From Nitrospira lenta (GTDB lineage: Bacteria > Nitrospirota > Nitrospiria > Nitrospirales > Nitrospiraceae), in assembly GCA_945905765.1 (NCBI GenBank), contig CAMDPZ010000007.1, positions 1-51,838 of the forward strand: a stretch of 51,838 nucleotides of DNA, written 5' to 3'. This document shows positions 41,822 to 51,838 of the stretch, piece after piece (the stretch's first letter is position 1; each line of letters opens with the position of its first letter). A program made the position numbers and the translations under genes. The notes beneath the pieces are model-generated. The model was not told where the DNA came from. It ran no database searches and saw nothing but the letters and a program-made list of their open reading frames with translations.

Positions 41822-43195
41822 ATGACCGAAGAATGGGGCGCGATTCTCGTCGTGGACGATGATGCGGAAATGCGAGAGCTGGTTCACGATGTGCTCAAAG
41901 ACCGTGGGCATCAGATCACGACGGCAGGCAGCGGACAGGAGGCCCTCACATTATTGGGGGGGGCAGACTATGCGGTCGTGCTGACCGATCTACGGATGAA
42001 AGGGATGCTTGGGACGGAGTTGCTGACGGAGATTCGGCGTCTCTATCCGGATATCGGGGTTGTGCTCATGACGGCCTTCGGAACAGTGGACACAGCGGTG
42101 GAGGCCATGAAGCGGGGCGCTAGCGACTATCTGACTAAGCCGGTGAAGAACGACGAGCTGGTGCGGGTCGTCGAGCGGGTGATCCGCGAAGCCGGATTAC
42201 GGCGAGAAGTGAACCGGCTTAGACGGGAAGTGCATAAGGAATATAGTTTTCATCACATCATCGGCAAGAGCAAGCCGATGCAGGAGGTGTTCGATCTGAT
42301 CCGGCGCGTCGCCGACAGTCCCACGAATCTGTTGATCACCGGCGAGAGCGGCACAGGCAAGGAGTTGGTGGCGAAGGCCATTCATTATAATAGCGACCGG
42401 AAGGATGCGCCCTTTATTCCCGTTAACTGCGCTGCCATTCCAGAGCAACTGCTCGAAAGCGAGCTGTTCGGCCATATGAGAGGGTCGTTCACCGATGCGA
42501 AGATGGATAAGCGGGGCCTCTTCGAAGAAGCGCAGAAAGGCACGTTGTTTCTGGACGAGATCAGCGAGTTGCCGCTGATGCTGCAGGCCAAGATTTTGCG
42601 GGCGATCCAGGAGAAAGAGATCCGCCGTGTGGGGGCGAACAAGCCGATCTCGGTCGATGTGCGTATCATTGCGGCGACAAATCTCCATCTGACGGAGGAG
42701 GTCAAGGCGAAACGTTTCCGGGAGGATTTGTATTACCGGCTCAATGTGATCGAGCTGCGCCTGCCTCCCTTGCGCGAGCGCCGCGAAGATATTCCTTTGC
42801 TCGTGGATGCGTTCATGAAGAAGTGCGCCGAGGTTCGCGGGAAACAGATTCAGGGGGTGAGCGAGTCTGCCTTGGCGATGTTGGTGGATTATGCCTGGCC
42901 CGGCAATGTGCGCGAATTGGAAAATGTGATCGAACGGGCCGTCACACTCACCAGGAGCGAAAAAATCGTCCCTGGCGATCTTCCGGTGGCGATCCAGGGG
43001 GCCAGGGGCGATCGGCGCATCCTCGACGATGCGGCGGAACGGACCCTGCCGCTGGACGAAGTGGAAAAGGAATATATCCTCAAGATTCTCGAAAAGACCG
43101 GCGGCAATAAGTATCAGGCGGCTCAGATGTTAGGGATCGACCGCAAAACGCTCTATCGGAAGTTGGGCGAGATCGAGGGGAAGACTCCAGCGTGA
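41822..43195 (+). CDS. NtrC-family sigma-54 response regulator
   Basis: 457 residues: receiver (about 7-120; D56 in VLTDLRM, K105), AAA+ domain (about 145-375; Walker A GESGTGKE, Walker B LFLDE) and a Fis-type helix-turn-helix at the end (YQAAQMLGIDRKTLYRKL). The loop that contacts sigma-54, normally GAFTGA, reads GSFTDA at 221-226, which may change how it activates. The ATG with GGGAGG upstream is chosen over a TTG six codons earlier. Coupled to the kinase gene by a GTGA overlap, so this is its cognate pair. Confidence 0.92.
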   Translation: MTEEWGAILVVDDDAEMRELVHDVLKDRGHQITTAGSGQEALTLLGGADYAVVLTDLRMKGMLGTELLTEIRRLYPDIGVVLMTAFGTVDTAVEAMKRGASDYLTKPVKNDELVRVVERVIREAGLRREVNRLRREVHKEYSFHHIIGKSKPMQEVFDLIRRVADSPTNLLITGESGTGKELVAKAIHYNSDRKDAPFIPVNCAAIPEQLLESELFGHMRGSFTDAKMDKRGLFEEAQKGTLFLDEISELPLMLQAKILRAIQEKEIRRVGANKPISVDVRIIAATNLHLTEEVKAKRFREDLYYRLNVIELRLPPLRERREDIPLLVDAFMKKCAEVRGKQIQGVSESALAMLVDYAWPGNVRELENVIERAVTLTRSEKIVPGDLPVAIQGARGDRRILDDAAERTLPLDEVEKEYILKILEKTGGNKYQAAQMLGIDRKTLYRKLGEIEGKTPA

Positions 43196-44292
43196 GCCAA
43201 GAGTTGCACGATAGTGAGGAGCAGTTTCGTCTCATTGTGGAAGCCGCGCCTAATGGCATGTTGCTGACTGACGCGAACGGCAAGATTGTGATGGCGAACG
43301 CTTCCGCCCTTCGCCAATTCGGCTACGAGAGGGATGAGCTGCTCGGTCAGTCTGTCGAGGTGCTCATTCCTGGGTCCGCTCGATCCGATCACCGGCAGCA
43401 CCATGCGGGTTTCATGCAGGCGCCTGAAGCCAGATCGATGGGGGCGCGGCGTGAGCTGTTCGGCTTGCGGAAGGACGGTAGCGAGTTTGCCGTTGAAATC
43501 GGACTCACGCCCATTCAGACGGCCAAGGGGCGCGGGGTGGTGGCGTCGATCGTGGATATTTCCGAGCGCAAACATCTGGAGGCGCAGCTCCGGCAGGCGG
43601 AACGGTTGGCGGAGTTGGGCACCTTGGCGTCCGGTATGGCGCATGAAATCGGGACGCCGATGAATGTGATCCTGGGGCGCGCGGAATATTTGCTCCATCG
43701 CACCGCCGACGAAGGAATGAAGAAGGGGCTTACCACGATCGTCACGCAGGTTGAGCGCATCACCAAGGTGATGAATCAGCTCCTGGCCTTTGCCAGGCGG
43801 AGGACGCCGGAGCGGCGGGCTGCCGATCTCGGTGCGATCGTGGAGGATAGTCTGGAGATGTTCCAGGAGCGGATCGCCCACAGCCGCATTGAGGTCGACA
43901 AGATGTTCGCCTCGCCCTTGCCTCCTGTTCGTGCCGATCGGGACCAGCTCATGCAAGTGCTCATCAATCTCGTGATGAACAGTCTCCATGCCATGCCGGA
44001 GGGGGGCCGTCTCAGCCTGAGCCTCGCCCGTGAGGGCAACTACGCGCGACTCGACGTTGCCGATACCGGCCATGGCATGCCGGAAGAGATCCGTTCGAAA
44101 GTCTTCGATCCATTTTTCACCACCAAAGAGTTCGGAAAGGGGACTGGCTTGGGCCTCACGGTGGTGAAGGGGATCATCGAGGAACATGGTGGAACTATTA
44201 CGCTGGAGAGCGTTGTCGAAAAGGGCACGACCTTTACCATCCGTCTCCCTCTCGATTTAACTGGGACGGTCGGGACTTCCTCCTCGTCATAG
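43192..44292 (+). CDS. PAS-domain histidine kinase
   Basis: 366 residues, soluble (no membrane segment): one PAS domain (about 8-125), HisKA with H151 in [13 protein letters not shown], and HATPase with the N box ([16 protein letters not shown]), [10 protein letters not shown] and [18 protein letters not shown]. It lacks sensor features that name its signal; a cytoplasmic cue such as redox is possible. GTG start overlapping the regulator's stop indicates a two-component pair. Confidence 0.93.
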
Positions 44293-44355: not shown

Positions 44356-44537
44356 AAATTGGCCTGGCTCTGTCCCAATTTTCACCAGGCCCATAGCCGT
44401 TCCTGCTGCAAGTTCTTGGATTGCGACAAAATATTAAGCGGGATGGCTCACTTACGAATCTCCTGTTCTAGCGACCGCTCGAGACCAGGCTGGCATGGGT
44501 TGTGAAGTCTTTCCCTCGCAAGGGGGCCAAGGGGGCA

Positions 44538-44939
44538 ATGAATGTGATGGTGGAAAGGAAGCCAGTGGTGTTACTCATCGCTGAAGATGATCAGGAAATG
44601 CGGAGCCTCCTCTGTGATGAACTTTGGGATCTGGGGGTATCGATCCGGGAGGCCGCCGATGGAGACGAGGCGCTTCGATCGGTGCTCGATACCCGCCCGA
44701 CGCTGATTCTCACGGATCTCCGTATGCCGGCTGGTGGATTGGATTATATTTCCAGGCTGCGGACCTTTGCTCCCGGAGTGCCGATTGTGTTGCTCACGTC
44801 ATTTGGCGATTCTCAAACGAGAGCCGATGCCTTGGCGATCGGCGTGGAGGCCTACTTCGATAAGCCGGTTCGCCTGAGTGAGCTGAAGGGGGCCGTGCGG
44901 CGGCTGTTAGGCCCGGCATTGGATGGAAAAACCAACTGA
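44538..44939 (+). CDS. Single-domain response regulator (receiver only)
   Basis: 133 residues: one receiver with acidic pocket EDD (16-18), phospho-acceptor D60 in LILTDLRMP, switch Thr (LLTSFG) and K106 (YFDKPVR). No output domain, so it acts by protein contact, perhaps with the neighbouring kinase. The ATG is chosen because AAGGGGG precedes it; a GTG 12 codons earlier is an alternative. Confidence 0.85.
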   Translation: MNVMVERKPVVLLIAEDDQEMRSLLCDELWDLGVSIREAADGDEALRSVLDTRPTLILTDLRMPAGGLDYISRLRTFAPGVPIVLLTSFGDSQTRADALAIGVEAYFDKPVRLSELKGAVRRLLGPALDGKTN

Positions 44940-44984: not shown

Positions 44985-46370
44985 ATGGCCGGATCTCAAA
45001 AGATTCCCTCAGCCGTTCCTCCTGCTATAGATCCCATTCTTGCCGCTCGCCTGGAAGCCATCAAGCAATTAGCCGGTGGGTTTTCCGAGCGAGTGGCGGT
45101 GGTGGATCGCAATTTCAACGTCGTATATGCGAATGAATCTGCATGGTCGGAGGAGACCTCTCCCTCGTTCGATCATTCAGCCAAGTGCTATGAGGCCTTT
45201 GCCCATAGGGAAGATCCCTGTGGCGCCTGTCCTGCGACGAATCTCTTCGAATCGTCCGAGGTCCGGTCCGTCGCCTGTTCTTCCGGAGGGGACGGCACGG
45301 ACTGCGGGATGCATCAGGCCTTTCCTCTTGCGGCGAGCAGCGGCGAGGTCAAGTCTGTGTTAGTGAGATTCAAGGGGCCGTTGCATCCTGCGAGCGGTGC
45401 GGGAAATGATGCGTCGGTTGCGCGGAAAGACGTGGGGCTCGGCGAGTTGATCGGTTCGAGCAAGCCGATGCGAGAGCTTCTCGATATGATCCGGCTGGTG
45501 GCCGACAGCAGCGCGACTGTGTTGATTCAAGGGGAGAGCGGCACAGGGAAGGAACTGGTCGCCAAGACGATTCACCGCACCAGCTATCGACGGGATAAGC
45601 CCTTCGTCGTGGTCGATTGCGGTTCGTTGCCGGAAACATTGTTGGAAAGCGAGCTGTTCGGGCATGTGAAGGGCTCCTTCACGGGCGCTCACGCGTCGAA
45701 GCGAGGGCTCTTCGAGGAAGCCGATGGAGGTACGATCTTTCTGGATGAGATTGCGGACACGACGGCGACGTTTCAATCCAAGTTGCTGCGGGTGTTGCAA
45801 GAGGGAGAGATCAAACCGGTCGGAGGCAATCAATCGATCAAGATCGATGCGCGGGTGATTTCCGCGACGAATAAGGATCTCGTCGAACTCGTCAAGGCCA
45901 AGGCTTTTCGTCAGGATCTCTACTATCGGCTCGCTGTGCTCCCGCTCTATCTGCCGGCGCTCCGGGATCGGCGAGAGGATATCCCTCTTCTGGCGCAGCA
46001 TTTTGTCGAGGTATCCTGCGCCCGCCATCGGCAGGAAGTTCGTCATGTGCCGCCGGACGTGATGCAGGCGTTGACCCAGGCTCTTTGGCCCGGCAATGTG
46101 CGGGAGTTGCAACATTATCTTGAACGGGCGGTCGTCACGACGAGCGGGTCCGAGTTGCAGTGCAAGGATCTCGTGGCGGCGGGATCGGAGCAGGCGGGGC
46201 ATGACCTCCGCACCGTGGCGCGCGGGGCCGCCCAGCAGGCCGAACGTGCGAGAATTCTGCAAGCGCTTCAGCAGACCGGAGGCAACCGTGCCAAGGCTGC
46301 CAAGCTCCTCAAGATCAGCCGGGCCAGCCTCTATAATAAGCTTCGAGCCTACGAATTGGGCGACGTCTAG
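44985..46370 (+). CDS. Sigma-54-dependent transcriptional activator with PAS-like sensor
   Basis: 461 residues: a PAS-like N-terminus (about 20-135) with five cysteines (C68, C79, C82, C98, C107; pattern C...CxxC...C...C), then AAA+ with GESGTGKE, a standard GSFTGA loop (230-235) and Walker B IFLDE, and a Fis-type helix-turn-helix ([20 protein letters not shown]). The Cys cluster could bind metal, haem or an Fe-S cluster or sense redox. There is no receiver domain, so it would respond directly to a ligand. The next gene, about 600 bp on, is the large multicopper oxidase with a sigma-54-type promoter. Confidence 0.9.
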
Positions 46371-46748: not shown

Positions 46749-46763
46749 GGGCATGCAAGTTGC
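46749..46763 (+). promoter_or_regulatory. Sigma-54-type promoter upstream of the multicopper oxidase
   Basis: GGGCATG-CAAG-TTGC matches the -24/-12 consensus TGGCACG-N4-TTGC at 9 of 11 defined positions with exact spacing. The predicted start is near 46775, leaving a 195-base leader. Two sigma-54 activators are encoded just upstream. Confidence 0.6.
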
Positions 46764-46771
46764 GAATACGT

Positions 46772-46856
46772 AGCGCTGCTGGTGGGGGTCTGGGTAATTT
46801 TGGACCGGCCTCCGAATGACCCTTTCCTCTGCAAGGAGGAACCCCCCACCAGCGCT
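46772..46856 (+). other. Structured leader with sequestered Shine-Dalgarno-like sequence
   Basis: CTGGTGGGGG pairs with CCCCCACCAG across a 54-base loop, extended by AGCG/CGCT after a 3-base bulge. Inside, TTCCTC-TGCAAG-GAGGAA forms a second hairpin holding AAGGAGGA. No start codon follows that motif within 10 bases. A third hairpin CCGCCT-GGTG-AGGCGG lies at 46932-46947, just before the oxidase ribosome binding site. A 24-codon frame (46868-46942, MSRAGVCRTG...) could be a leader peptide. Confidence 0.45.
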
Positions 46857-46969
46857 TAATACAGGCCATGAGCCGTGCTGGAGTTTGTCGGACAGGCAAC
46901 GAAATACGCGTGACGAGTTGTTTCAACCAATCCGCCTGGTGAGGCGGGCATAACAGGGGAGGCCGTACT

Positions 46970-49900
46970 ATGAGGGGTGATGTGTTTCAACCAACGCGCA
47001 GGCGGCGCCGTACAGGGTTGGCGCTGATGCTGCAGAGCGTCTTGCTGGCCGGCAGTCTGGTGGCAACACCAGGGCTGTTTGCGGCGGGATCGGGAGAGGG
47101 GGCCCATTCAGGGCATGCCACTCCGGTTGCGATGCCGGGCTGGACCCAGCAGTTGAAAGGCCAGACAGTGGTGGAAAACGCCATTGAAGGCCGTTCCGGC
47201 AATGCAGAGAAGATGGAGATGCAGCACCATCGCCTGATGGAGAAGCTCGAGCAGCAGGCGCAGAAAGACGCCAAGGCTCAGCAGACGTCCGGTGCATTCA
47301 ACGAAATGTCGATGATGCACCAGTACATGGGACAGGACGGCAGCAGCTTCCTGCTCATGTCGGATGGTACCAAGGGTGAGCCGGTGATGGCATCGGGCGG
47401 GAAGTGTCCCGCCGGTGTGCCGGTCAAGAAGTATGACGTGTCGATGATCAACGTCGAGATCACGTTGAATCGTTGGCTCGATTTTTATCCCGGGTACATG
47501 TACGCGCTGACTCAGGATCTCGATAAGGTCCGCAGCGAGGAAGCCAAGAACAAGGCCTCTCGCGACAAAGATGGCTTCGATCCGGGAGCCGTGTCGACCG
47601 GGTTACAGGGCGATATGATCCAGCCCCTGGTGCTCCGTGCCAACCAGGGCGACTGCGTGAAGATGACCCTCCGCAATCAGATGGAAGGCGAAGACGGCAG
47701 CTTGTTCATCAGCGCCTCCAGCATGATCGTGAGCGCGACCGGCAAGCCGGCCCTGACGACGAACCCCGAGTCCATCGTGGCTCCGGGCAAGGCGCAGGAG
47801 TTCGAGTGGTACATCCATCCGCAGATGCAGGAGGGTGTGCGGCAGTTCCATTCTTACAGCCATGACCGTGAGTTGACCGTGTTGGGCCTCTTCGGCGCGT
47901 TCATCGTGGAACCGAAGGGATCGAGCTACGTCGATGCGTTGGGGACAGGCCCTGACAAGCAGGTCACGAGCGGCTGGCAGGTGAACATCGATAACGGGTC
48001 CGGACCGGACTTCCGCGAGTTCGTGCTGTTCTATCACGAAATCGGCGACGAAGCCTTCCGCCCCTTGAACAAGAAGGGCGACTTCTTGCCCCAGCGCGAT
48101 CCGCTGACGGATGCCTATCGTCCGGGAGGCCGTGCGATCAACTATCGCAGCGAGCCGTTCGGTATCGATCAGATGCATCTGCAGCATGAGTATTTCGGCT
48201 TCGAAGACGAGTCGATGGCCTACAGCGCCTATACGTTCGGCGATACCCCGACCACGATTGCCCGCGGTTATCTGGGCGATCCGGTCAAGTGGCGGCTGGT
48301 CCATGGTGGATCGGAAGTGTTCCACTCCCACCATCCACACAGCGGAACGATCCGTTGGCAGCGCAGCCCGCGCGCCGATCAGGAAGAACATTGGTATAAG
48401 GGTCAGGATGGTCCGGTGAAGTATCCGGTCGTCCGGACCAAGTCTGATCGCGTGGACGTGGAAGTCATCGGGCCTTCAGAAGCCTTGGACCTCGAACCGG
48501 AATGCGGCGGCGGTGGCTGTCAGCATCTGGCGGGCGAGTTCCTCTATCACTGCCACGTGGCGCACCACTATGTGGCGGGCATGTGGGGTTACGGACGTTT
48601 CTACAATACGTTGCAAGTCGGTTCGGCCCACACGGACACGATGCCTGACTTGGCGGAATTGCCGGACCGTAAGGGCCGGATGAAGATGGGCGTGTCGTCC
48701 GACAAGCTGATCGGCACGACCGTCGATTGGTTCGGGAAGGTCTTCAAGATTGTCGATAAGAGCCAGAAGACCAACTGGAAGTCCGATCCTGTCATTGTGA
48801 ACATCAAGGATTGGGTCGAGATGTTTGTGCCGGCCGCCGGTCAGCCAGGCCACACGAATGATGAGAAGGGCCAGATCATGGCCTACGATTCCACCGTGTG
48901 GGATTGGAAGTGGGATGGCAACATTGCCAGGGGCGAGCGCGAAAGCACCGCTCTGAATCCGAAATATACAGCGGCCGCCAAGTGGGATGACAGCACCAGA
49001 CCTGCCATCCTGTTTGATCCGACCACGGCCAAGATGTCCTGGCCGTTGTTCAAGCCGCACTTCGGCAAGCGGGTGCCTTTCTCCGCGAACCACAGTGGTG
49101 CGCCATGGCTGGAACCGATTCACCAGGATGCAAACGGTGAACGGACTTCCGAGCCGGCACAGCCGGGCGAGCAGGGCCGTTGGAGCCTCTGCCCCGACAA
49201 TGCCAATCGTAAGCATTACAATATCCATTTCGTTCGTATGCCGATTACTCTAGTCAAAAAGCAGGGCAAAGAGCCGGCGATGGTCGACAAGGACGGTCTG
49301 ATCTACGTGCTCCATGAAGAGGAGAACCTGACCAGAGCGAACGACGACCTCAAGCTCCCCGCCGTCATCCGCGCAAACGTGTATGACTGTGTGGACTTGC
49401 TGTTGACGAGCGAGTGGGACGACGACGATTACACGAATTTCCAGTCGTCCAAGATCAACATCCATCCCCACTTCTTCCAGTTCGACACGGGGAATTCGGA
49501 TGGTGTGATTTCAGGGTTCGAGTATGAAATGTCGGTCCGGCCGTTCACCATGTGGGGTAAGAAGACCAAACATGGGTTGCCGGCGCCGATGGTCGGGAAG
49601 TTGACGGGTGCCGCGAAGGCGGGCACTGCGTCCATCACTATTCAGATGGCGCCTGGCGCCACGCCGTTCCATGTGAACACTGAAGTGATGGTGGGCATGG
49701 ATTGTTTAGAGAAGGGCCATGACGCTGCGGCTTCGTTGCCGCGGGACAAGAGCTGTCAGGAAGTCGCCCGGATCAAGGAGATCAATGGTTCGACTGTGAC
49801 GTTCTTCAAGCCGCTGAAGCAGAACCATCCGGCGGGCGATCTCGTGTCGCCGGAGTTCGTCCGCTACCGGTGGTGGGTGGACGTCGATATGGGGACCGTG

Positions 49901-51838
49901 TTCTGGCATGACCACGCGTTCGGCGCGACGACCTGGCCGCATGGCGGGTTCGGCGTGACGATCGTGGAGCCGTTCGGGTCCACCTATCACGATCCGAAGA
50001 ACGGCAAGCTGGTGTATAGCGGCCCGATTGCCGATATTCACAGCAACGAGCCGATCGGAGCCGGTGTCAGCGGCAGCTTCCGTGAGTTGATGGTGTCGAT
50101 CCATGACACCGTTCCGCACACGGTGAACACCATTGAGGCGGGCAATCCTCCGGGACAGCCCATCGAAGTGGCGTTGGAAGCCGGTAAGACCATTTCGTTC
50201 CAGATGCCGGATAAGATTCTGGCCTCTCCGAACAAGTACATCAACGGCGGTACGCATACGACCGGCAGCGGTTTCAACTTCCGCGCGGCTCCGTTTGCAC
50301 AACGTCTGTCCAACAATCCGGATACGTCCAAGCTGTTCAGCAGCGCGATCCATGGCGATCCCGGTACGCCGCTCTTGCGGGCGTACACAGGGGACACGAT
50401 GGTGTTCCGTCTGTTGCACCAGCTCATGAACGAATCCCACGTCTGGACGATCTCCGGCCATACGTTCCTCACGGAACGTTATGCGGCGGATGCCAATCGG
50501 AAGAACTCGATTCACGTCGGGATCGCCGAGCGGTATGACCTCGTGACCAAGGCGGGCGGATTCCAGGGTATGCCGGGCGACTACATTCACTTCAACGGCA
50601 GAACGTCACACTTCGCCGAAGGTGGATGGGGCATCGTGCGCGTACTCGACAAGGAAACGGCTGATCTGAAGCCGCTCCCGAAGGGGACCAATCCTCTCGG
50701 GATTCCCGCCACGCCGAACTCGGTCTGTCCGGCTGATGCTCCGGTGAAGAACTTCAACGTCGTGTCCTTGGACCGTCCGTTGAAACTTCATCCGAAGGCG
50801 CCGGATACGATCGAAGTCGACTTCGAGCGCAAGATTGAAATGACGGTGCCGGAAGGCAAGATCTTCGCGCTGGAAGAAGAAGCGACCACCGTGTCGGGCA
50901 ATGTGATGCCAAGTCCGCTCACGTTGCGCGTCAACCTTGGTGACTGCATCAAGGTGAATCTGAAGAACAAGATGAAGGCGAGCCGGGCGTCATTCTTTGC
51001 GCCGGGCCTGGCCTTCGATCCGAGAGACAGCCAGGGCTTGAACGTCGGCAACAATGCCGGCGATCAGACGGTGGCCCCGGGCGAGAGCCGCACTTATACC
51101 TATTACGCACATCCGGCGAACAAGGAAACGACGTCGCTGGTGTGGGACGGTGGCAACATCGTCGTGAATCCGCGCAACGGATTGTACGGCGCCATCGTGG
51201 TCGGTCCGCGCGGGTCGCAGTATCGCGATCCGGTGACCGGTGCGGATGTGTCGCAGAAGAATGCCTGGAGAGCTGACGTCATTGTCGACGCCAGCTTGAC
51301 GGAGAACGTCGGCAAGCGGAACTACCGTGACGTGGCCCTCTTCTTCCAAGACGAGGACAACATCATCGGCACCGCGTTCATGCCCTATGTGCAAAACGTG
51401 GCCGGGTTGACGTCGGTCAACTACCGCGCGGAACCCTATAAGTTCCGTGAGGAGCAAGGCTGCTCGCTAGGCAAGATTTTCCAGCCCTGCGTGGTGGACA
51501 AGCCGGAAGATCCGGTGACGCCTCTGATCGAGGCGCATGCCGGTGACGCGGTCCGTATCCATGTGATCGGCGCGAACAGCGAACAGAACGGGATGTTTGC
51601 GGTCGAAGGCCATGAATGGCCGATCGAACCCTACATGCCCGGCGCCGACCAGATCAGCGTCGTGGAGTACGCCGGGTCCGAGATCCTCGATGTCTTCATC
51701 CGCGGCGGTGCGGGCGGCCCGTATCGTCAGGTGGGAGACTTCGTGTGGTCCAATGCACGGCTGCCCTATACGCAGTCGGGACAATGGGGCTACCTCCGTG
51801 TGTTGCCAGCCGGTGACTCACGGATCCAACCGCTGGGC
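46970..51838 (+). CDS. Very large multi-domain multicopper oxidase, MofA-like (3' end outside window)
   Basis: At least 1,623 residues and still open. The N-terminus has RRRRRTGLALML and a hydrophobic stretch, a possible Tat signal. Copper motifs occur in two main sets: HSHHPHSG (452) with HCHVAHHYVAGM (527), and IHPHFFQFD (832) with FWHDHAFG (980) and SHVWTISGH (from 1157). Further cupredoxin-like units follow (e.g. EGHEWPIEPYMPG). The segment around HPHFFQFDTGNSDGVISGF and the size resemble MofA-type manganese oxidases. Copper oxidase is certain as a family; Mn(II) is an inference. GGGGAGG lies 7 bases before the ATG. Confidence 0.9.
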   Translation, partial: MRGDVFQPTRRRRRTGLALMLQSVLLAGSLVATPGLFAAGSGEGAHSGHATPVAMPGWTQQLKGQTVVENAIEGRSGNAEKMEMQHHRLMEKLEQQAQKDAKAQQTSGAFNEMSMMHQYMGQDGSSFLLMSDGTKGEPVMASGGKCPAGVPVKKYDVSMINVEITLNRWLDFYPGYMYALTQDLDKVRSEEAKNKASRDKDGFDPGAVSTGLQGDMIQPLVLRANQGDCVKMTLRNQMEGEDGSLFISASSMIVSATGKPALTTNPESIVAPGKAQEFEWYIHPQMQEGVRQFHSYSHDRELTVLGLFGAFIVEPKGSSYVDALGTGPDKQVTSGWQVNIDNGSGPDFREFVLFYHEIGDEAFRPLNKKGDFLPQRDPLTDAYRPGGRAINYRSEPFGIDQMHLQHEYFGFEDESMAYSAYTFGDTPTTIARGYLGDPVKWRLVHGGSEVFHSHHPHSGTIRWQRSPRADQEEHWYKGQDGPVKYPVVRTKSDRVDVEVIGPSEALDLEPECGGGGCQHLAGEFLYHCHVAHHYVAGMWGYGRFYNTLQVGSAHTDTMPDLAELPDRKGRMKMGVSSDKLIGTTVDWFGKVFKIVDKSQKTNWKSDPVIVNIKDWVEMFVPAAGQPGHTNDEKGQIMAYDSTVWDWKWDGNIARGERESTALNPKYTAAAKWDDSTRPAILFDPTTAKMSWPLFKPHFGKRVPFSANHSGAPWLEPIHQDANGERTSEPAQPGEQGRWSLCPDNANRKHYNIHFVRMPITLVKKQGKEPAMVDKDGLIYVLHEEENLTRANDDLKLPAVIRANVYDCVDLLLTSEWDDDDYTNFQSSKINIHPHFFQFDTGNSDGVISGFEYEMSVRPFTMWGKKTKHGLPAPMVGKLTGAAKAGTASITIQMAPGATPFHVNTEVMVGMDCLEKGHDAAASLPRDKSCQEVARIKEINGSTVTFFKPLKQNHPAGDLVSPEFVRYRWWVDVDMGTVFWHDHAFGATTWPHGGFGVTIVEPFGSTYHDPKNGKLVYSGPIADIHSNEPIGAGVSGSFRELMVSIHDTVPHTVNTIEAGNPPGQPIEVALEAGKTISFQMPDKILASPNKYINGGTHTTGSGFNFRAAPFAQRLSNNPDTSKLFSSAIHGDPGTPLLRAYTGDTMVFRLLHQLMNESHVWTISGHTFLTERYAADANRKNSIHVGIAERYDLVTKAGGFQGMPGDYIHFNGRTSHFAEGGWGIVRVLDKETADLKPLPKGTNPLGIPATPNSVCPADAPVKNFNVVSLDRPLKLHPKAPDTIEVDFERKIEMTVPEGKIFALEEEATTVSGNVMPSPLTLRVNLGDCIKVNLKNKMKASRASFFAPGLAFDPRDSQGLNVGNNAGDQTVAPGESRTYTYYAHPANKETTSLVWDGGNIVVNPRNGLYGAIVVGPRGSQYRDPVTGADVSQKNAWRADVIVDASLTENVGKRNYRDVALFFQDEDNIIGTAFMPYVQNVAGLTSVNYRAEPYKFREEQGCSLGKIFQPCVVDKPEDPVTPLIEAHAGDAVRIHVIGANSEQNGMFAVEGHEWPIEPYMPGADQISVVEYAGSEILDVFIRGGAGGPYRQVGDFVWSNARLPYTQSGQWGYLRVLPAGDSRIQPLG

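Follow-up and report, generated by a model that had tools for sequence, protein, structure and literature searches.

A large share of global nitrite oxidation is due to bacteria of the genus Nitrospira. Anti-Shine-Dalgarno regulatory RNAs and translational riboswitches are a known general class, and MofA of Leptothrix is a protein of giant size. MofA and OmpB of Geobacter are described as exported multicopper oxidases (MCOs), and the gene for MofA has mofB (PPIase) and mofC (cytochrome c) as neighbours (PMC5566968). For Nitrospira and Nitrospina, the passages on the MCO in Luecker et al. 2013 (PMC3578206) present an enzyme that resembles the Mn oxidase of Bacillus SG-1 and is highly conserved in N. 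defluvii, and propose, as a speculation, a role in Mn(III)-based ROS defence. The giant MCO described here is itself of this known kind, already reported for Nitrospira. What is new is an uncatalogued folded leader RNA in front of its gene and a matching 12-nt site at the ribosome-binding site of a sister MCO gene, which suggests that one RNA could coordinate both.

A giant multicopper oxidase with a single copper centre

The window, that is, the whole stretch of 51,838 nucleotides that was analysed, is the entire contig C7 of a 2.33-Mb Nitrospira MAG, in agreement with the Nitrospira-like genome perceived in an earlier, sequence-only reading. An ATG-started frame of 1623 codons, with no stop up to the window end, occupies 46970-51838 of the + strand, as expected from the more than 1,620 stop-free codons counted in that reading. 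Because the window is the whole contig, the gene is truncated, its 3' end being cut by the contig end, and because its 96%-identical relative (L042) is 1646 aa long, about 23 residues appear to be missing. Pfam recognises Cu-oxidase_3, in two stretches, and Cu-oxidase, and the three segments that had attracted attention originally, HPHFFQFD, SDGVISGF and FWHDHAFG, are all present. The gene and its copper motifs are as follows.

46970..51838, + strand: clade-A giant multicopper oxidase (ORF, Pfam, NCBIfam, structure match, homologues); 3' end off the contig
48323..48340, + strand: copper motif H452xxH455xH457, invariant in the alignment
48548..48583, + strand: copper motif H527-C528-H529xxxH533xxxxM538, with the type-1 Cys, invariant in the alignment
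49463..49471, + strand: copper motif H832xH834, invariant in the alignment
49907..49915, + strand: copper motif H980xH982, invariant in the alignment

Homologues were detected in 58 of the 61 related genomes, mostly in several copies per genome, so giant copper oxidases are near-universal in Nitrospira, and we found no demonstrated function for them. By clade A we mean the gene of the window and those closely related to it, by clade B homologues of about 67% identity and by clade C those of about 53%; these labels were set by identity, and in the tree the leader-bearing MCO genes of the marine family group near clade B. The genome that contains the window has a single clade-B copy, on contig C18, and an MnxG-family search of this genome found nothing beyond the two MCO copies. 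A plasmid search with the MCO yielded remote relatives only, with 31% identity at best coverage.

In an alignment of 15 Nitrospira homologues and 5 outgroup proteins, exactly one complete set of copper ligands is conserved, namely, the four motifs listed above, and a second conserved set in the other cupredoxin-like units is absent; the "at least two complete copper-site sets" of the sequence-only reading are thereby reduced to one. The set is divided between residues 452-538 and 832-982, an arrangement common to the outgroups too, and by its motifs represents one type-1 site and one trinuclear cluster in permuted order. AlphaFold gave models of low quality for residues 140-1240 (mean pLDDT 39) and 800-1623 (mean pLDDT 45). 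The signal peptide is Arg-rich; the twin arginines are conserved neither in orthologues nor in paralogues, and the suggested export by Tat is accordingly not borne out.

The best solved relative of the window MCO is MnxG (PDB 9bxa, E=3e-83). Against the MnxG equivalog model NF041487 of NCBIfam, however, the protein scores 112.4 bits, compared with a cut-off of 3100, so that the function of MnxG is not transferable to it; with TIGR01480, the model for CopA/PcoA copper-resistance MCOs, it scores 26.4 bits (cut-off 478.95), and there is no MofA model among its NCBIfam or Pfam matches. The profile search that had been proposed as a check thus identifies a remote relative of MnxG that stays below the cut-offs of both the MnxG equivalog and the CopA/PcoA model, and the MofA-like assignment holds to the extent that this is a giant, exported MCO of the MnxG/MofA type. 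Judging from these sequence features, the window ORF is a clade-A giant MCO of Nitrospira, predicted to be exported and related to MnxG, with one type-1/trinuclear copper centre.

The neighbours of clade-A MCO genes encode a CarboxypepD_reg protein, two FGE-sulfatase proteins and a beta-barrel protein. The CarboxypepD_reg protein follows both clade-A and clade-B MCOs (L008:6349-7269; L002:2117-3160) and contains a CxxHxxM motif, possibly similar to a type-1 copper site; perhaps, it is a redox partner of the MCO. The two FGE-sulfatase (SUMF1-like) proteins are encoded after the clade-A MCO at L042:7463-9460, and the second of these genes has, at its start, an extended complement to the leader loop described below (GGAGGCCGGTTATG). 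By eye, no obvious link to nitrite oxidoreductase is apparent in the flanks of the clade-B MCO of N. moscoviensis or the clade-A MCO of N. defluvii.

A structured leader RNA in a sigma-54 setting

Immediately upstream of the MCO gene, the window contains a sigma-54 promoter element and a structured leader RNA (46750-46859) that the sequence-only reading did not mention. These, and the regulatory genes that precede them, are listed here.

43192..44292, + strand: PAS histidine kinase (Pfam PAS, HisKA, HATPase_c), syntenic upstream of many clade-A MCOs
44502..44939, + strand: response regulator, receiver domain only (Pfam Response_reg), syntenic
44985..46370, + strand: sigma-54 activator with AAA+ and Fis-type HTH (Pfam Sigma54_activat, E=7e-70; HTH_8), syntenic
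46750..46763, + strand: sigma-54 -24/-12 element GGCATGCAAGTTGC, at fixed spacing before the leader core
46775..46859, + strand: structured leader RNA, three-way junction (model R1; 99.7 bits; covariation)
46778-46788 with 46843-46853, + strand: leader helix P1 (model R1)
46792-46795 with 46819-46822, + strand: leader helix P2 (model R1)
46828-46830 with 46835-46837, + strand: leader helix P3 (model R1)
46802..46813, + strand: loop region GGACCGGCCTCC, invariant in 40 sequences, its GGA pairing with TCC

The block of kinase, response regulator and activator is syntenic in many Nitrospira, N. defluvii included. An equivalent -24/-12 element is located 49-54 nt upstream of the leader core in 88 of 97 distinct upstream sequences, compared with 0.3 in shuffles, and seven of the nine sequences that lack it come from loci fetched for the bare 12-mer alone. 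With an element at fixed spacing and an adjoining Sigma54_activat gene, the locus qualifies as a sigma-54-dependent unit with a predicted promoter, and the transcription start predicted from the element would coincide with the first base of the leader. The activator (44985-46370) has a Cys-rich N-terminal region (CYEAF...CGACP...) and no receiver domain, and may sense metal or redox state through this region. In genus g8 (L110, L111, L112), a sigma-54-like element is retained before the MCO gene, with the leader RNA replaced by other sequence.

Alignment of 40 leader sequences yields a three-way junction whose core is almost constant; the CCGGCC of the loop is predicted to be exposed (unpaired probability near 1). 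When divergent members are added, compensatory changes are seen in 15 of the 21 base pairs, 96.6% of the cells pair, and 85 double-change cells are observed versus 19.9 +- 3.5 in shuffles and 10-16 in slid controls; for this count the alignment had been fitted to the model, a procedure that works in favour of the structure. P1 is the best-paired helix (99.1% of cells), and in one divergent leader (L033) it is largely replaced and yet still pairs. Rfam 15 gave only chance matches, none of them falling on the leader, the literature that we searched contains no description of such an RNA, and the leader core is absent from IMG/VR. Downstream of the leader, the window contains nothing that resembles a terminator, and thus gives no indication of a free small RNA; a terminator/anti-terminator alternative was not seen either. 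We considered and dismissed a conserved leader peptide, since the reading frame is disrupted within the best-conserved stretch by an indel of one base (GATTAGG vs GATTTTGG). Taken together, the leader structure and its sigma-54 setting are well supported.

The leader is found 5' of every clade-A MCO gene with enough upstream sequence, at about 60 loci, the exceptions being at contig edges. The leader model matches in 34 of the 61 relatives and in 64 of 246 genomes of the phylum, and among the genomes searched the leader is seen only in Nitrospirales. Nearly all of the inspected matches precede giant MCO genes, namely, those of clade A, clade C and the marine family; clade-B MCO genes are without a leader, one match precedes a beta-barrel gene, and a few are at contig ends or unclear. 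The leaders of clade C2 lack both the sigma-54 element and the matching Shine-Dalgarno sequence. In the beta-barrel case (L148:4106-4189, genome G049), a copy of the leader with its sigma-54 element stands before an outer-membrane beta-barrel gene rather than an MCO gene, and a similar beta-barrel gene is located downstream of the clade-A MCO gene at L042 (9628-10320). A weak leader-like match of 23.5 bits (L158:2976-3055, on G025:C88) lies directly behind a good sigma-54 element and is followed by an ORF whose small product looks exported; the match might belong to a wider RNA family.

Complementarity of the leader loop to MCO start regions

Over 12 nt, the leader loop GGACCGGCCUCC is perfectly complementary to the start region of clade-B MCO genes (GGAGGCCGGUCC-AUG), which reads AAGGAGGCCGGUCC-AUG and in the genome under study is found at G000:C18:262-273, on a contig other than that of the leader. 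The pattern GGAGGCCGGTCC-N0-3-ATG has 16 occurrences in 37 genomes: 15 mark clade-B MCO starts and the remaining one falls within coding sequence. The reversed control does not occur at all. The pattern GGAGGCC[AG]GTCC, which covers the site and its A variant, gives 31 matches in 61 genomes, 26 at giant-MCO starts and five at chance places. The additional copies of the 12-mer do not coincide with ribosome-binding sites of conserved genes, except for a glutaredoxin start in G023, which we take as chance.

The predicted energy of pairing with the loop averages about -29 kcal/mol for clade B versus a background mean of -13 over 339 gene starts. The clade-B median is not attained by any non-MCO start among these approximately 339. 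The top-scoring background entry turned out to be a fragment of a clade-B MCO, and several of those ranked just below it belong to genes that lie downstream of a clade-A MCO, within the clade-A operon. Seven further bases between the Shine-Dalgarno sequence and the AUG are conserved in clade B, with variable sequence on either side. In G049, the leader loop is GGACUGGCCUCC and the MCO start region is GGAGGCCAGUCC, a matching change on both sides, and G014 possesses both loop types together with the A site. There are also misfits: in G032, the A-variant site coexists with a detected leader of the C-loop type, and a perfect clade-B site is retained without a detectable leader in G044, G047 and G054. 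Overall, a perfect site is present in 16 of 20 leader-positive versus 5 of 16 leader-negative genomes (Fisher p=0.006, hand-tabulated, relatedness ignored), and the leader-negative genomes more often have a degenerate clade-B site. On these observations, pairing of the loop with the clade-B start region is likely.

A second, near-identical loop-complementary site lies about 70 nt upstream of the clade-B MCO site on C18 (L159:193-204 and 262-273; GGAGGCCGGTTC) and recurs in G001, G009 and G017. The clade-B start region is changed, to GGAGGCGGTTCC or GGAGGCGGTTTC, in six of the seven genomes of genus g8. A GGAACCGCCTCC partner for this altered site was looked for, but the matches were mostly the sites themselves and coding-looking sequence, with the conserved match resembling a glutamate-synthase gene; no compensating RNA was found for g8.

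The MCO gene of the window has a complement of its own to the loop, given in the following line.

46958..46965, + strand: Shine-Dalgarno region GGAGGCCG of the MCO gene (sequence; 8-nt complement of the loop)

This cis pairing is not exceptional, given that 41 of 339 other starts do as well, and no more than suggests an interaction between the leader and the gene's own Shine-Dalgarno sequence.

A possible role of the leader RNA and the alternatives

We consider it fairly probable that a sigma-54-driven leader RNA pairs, through its loop, with the ribosome-binding site of the clade-B MCO in trans and with its own mRNA, tying translation of the paralogues to the signal. The MCO gene would be transcribed from the sigma-54 promoter, probably under the control of the adjoining kinase, regulator and activator, with the 5' end of its transcript expected at the base of the three-way junction. 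The RNA would then present its fixed loop to ribosome-binding sites, pairing over 12 nt with clade-B MCO mRNA in trans and over about 8 nt with its own mRNA, and masking or freeing of these sites would couple MCO translation to sigma-54 signalling. The pairing may repress rather than activate translation, and the leader might act as a separate small RNA. More tentatively, as a possibility to which we give somewhat less than even weight, this is a new RNA family in which a sigma-54-controlled 5' leader also acts in trans through the 12-nt pairing, so that two MCOs would be coordinated or mutually exclusive.

A cis-acting riboswitch could also account for the compactness and strong conservation of the junction, whose core scarcely varies even outside the loop (GAAUGACC), a feature that target pairing does not explain. 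On this reading, a metal ion or metabolite (copper, manganese or nitrogen species) would be recognised by the junction and would thereby control how accessible the gene's own Shine-Dalgarno sequence is, the clade-B match being secondary and coming from shared ribosome-binding-site sequence. The partial complementarity of that Shine-Dalgarno sequence to the loop and the invariable position of the leader 5' of a metalloenzyme gene, bar one beta-barrel gene, are compatible with such a switch, but the 12-nt match at clade-B starts shows specificity for MCO genes, the leader matches none of the known riboswitch families and no terminator/anti-terminator alternative is seen; we regard this account as rather unlikely. 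Alternatively, the leader might serve to stabilise the 5' end or to recruit an RNA-binding protein, with a strong stem at +1 protecting the long MCO mRNA and no antisense role, which would fit a P1 that is the best-paired helix and begins at the predicted transcription start; for a generic stabiliser, however, an invariant loop complementing MCO starts would be superfluous, and so would the double change in G049, which makes this quite improbable. Finally, the loop CCUCC matches any Shine-Dalgarno sequence, GGAGG being common to most start sites, and the remainder of the match might be lineage-conserved sequence, as the three leader-negative genomes with a perfect site and the mismatch kept in G032 would suggest. 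Such a coincidence appears improbable in view of the seven extra bases conserved up to the AUG between variable flanks, the specificity to MCO starts across two families and the compensatory pair in G049.

With regard to the protein, the sequence-only reading favoured a MofA-type Mn(II) oxidase serving energy metabolism or detoxification. Remote kinship with MnxG and the Mn(III)/ROS role proposed in the MCO passages of PMC3578206 speak for it; against it stand the score below the MnxG equivalog cut-off, the failure to see mofB and mofC neighbours and the near-universal occurrence of the MCO in Nitrospira genomes whatever the habitat, which rather suggests a core function. To this view we accord little probability, and nothing in the analysis supports Mn(II) oxidation by the enzyme or Mn oxidation as an energy metabolism.

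To return to the leader RNA as a possible regulator of MCO paralogues, conserved control by sigma-54 and RNA would provide a handle on when these enzymes are made and which paralogues cooperate, so that the role of giant MCOs would become approachable through their regulation. The leader would, moreover, add to Rfam a structured RNA family now missing from it.

Comparison with known systems

To MnxG of Bacillus (9bxa, NF041487), the window MCO is related over much of its length, the regions of the HxxHxH and HCH motifs being aligned, and it has the complete MCO ligand set; in the tree, however, the Nitrospira lineage is separate from the Priestia MnxG-like protein and the other outgroups. Export is shared with MofA and OmpB as described (PMC5566968), whereas mofB (PPIase) and mofC (cytochrome c) are not seen beside the clade-A MCO of Nitrospira. 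The MCO in the relevant passages of Luecker et al. 2013 (PMC3578206) is the same kind of protein, but those passages do not refer to a leader RNA, a sigma-54 promoter or complementarity between paralogues. As in anti-Shine-Dalgarno RNAs and translational riboswitches, a structured RNA here offers a CCUCC-containing loop to ribosome-binding sites; it differs from these in having no Rfam match and in combining a sigma-54 element, a tie to giant MCOs and a 12-nt match to a paralogue.
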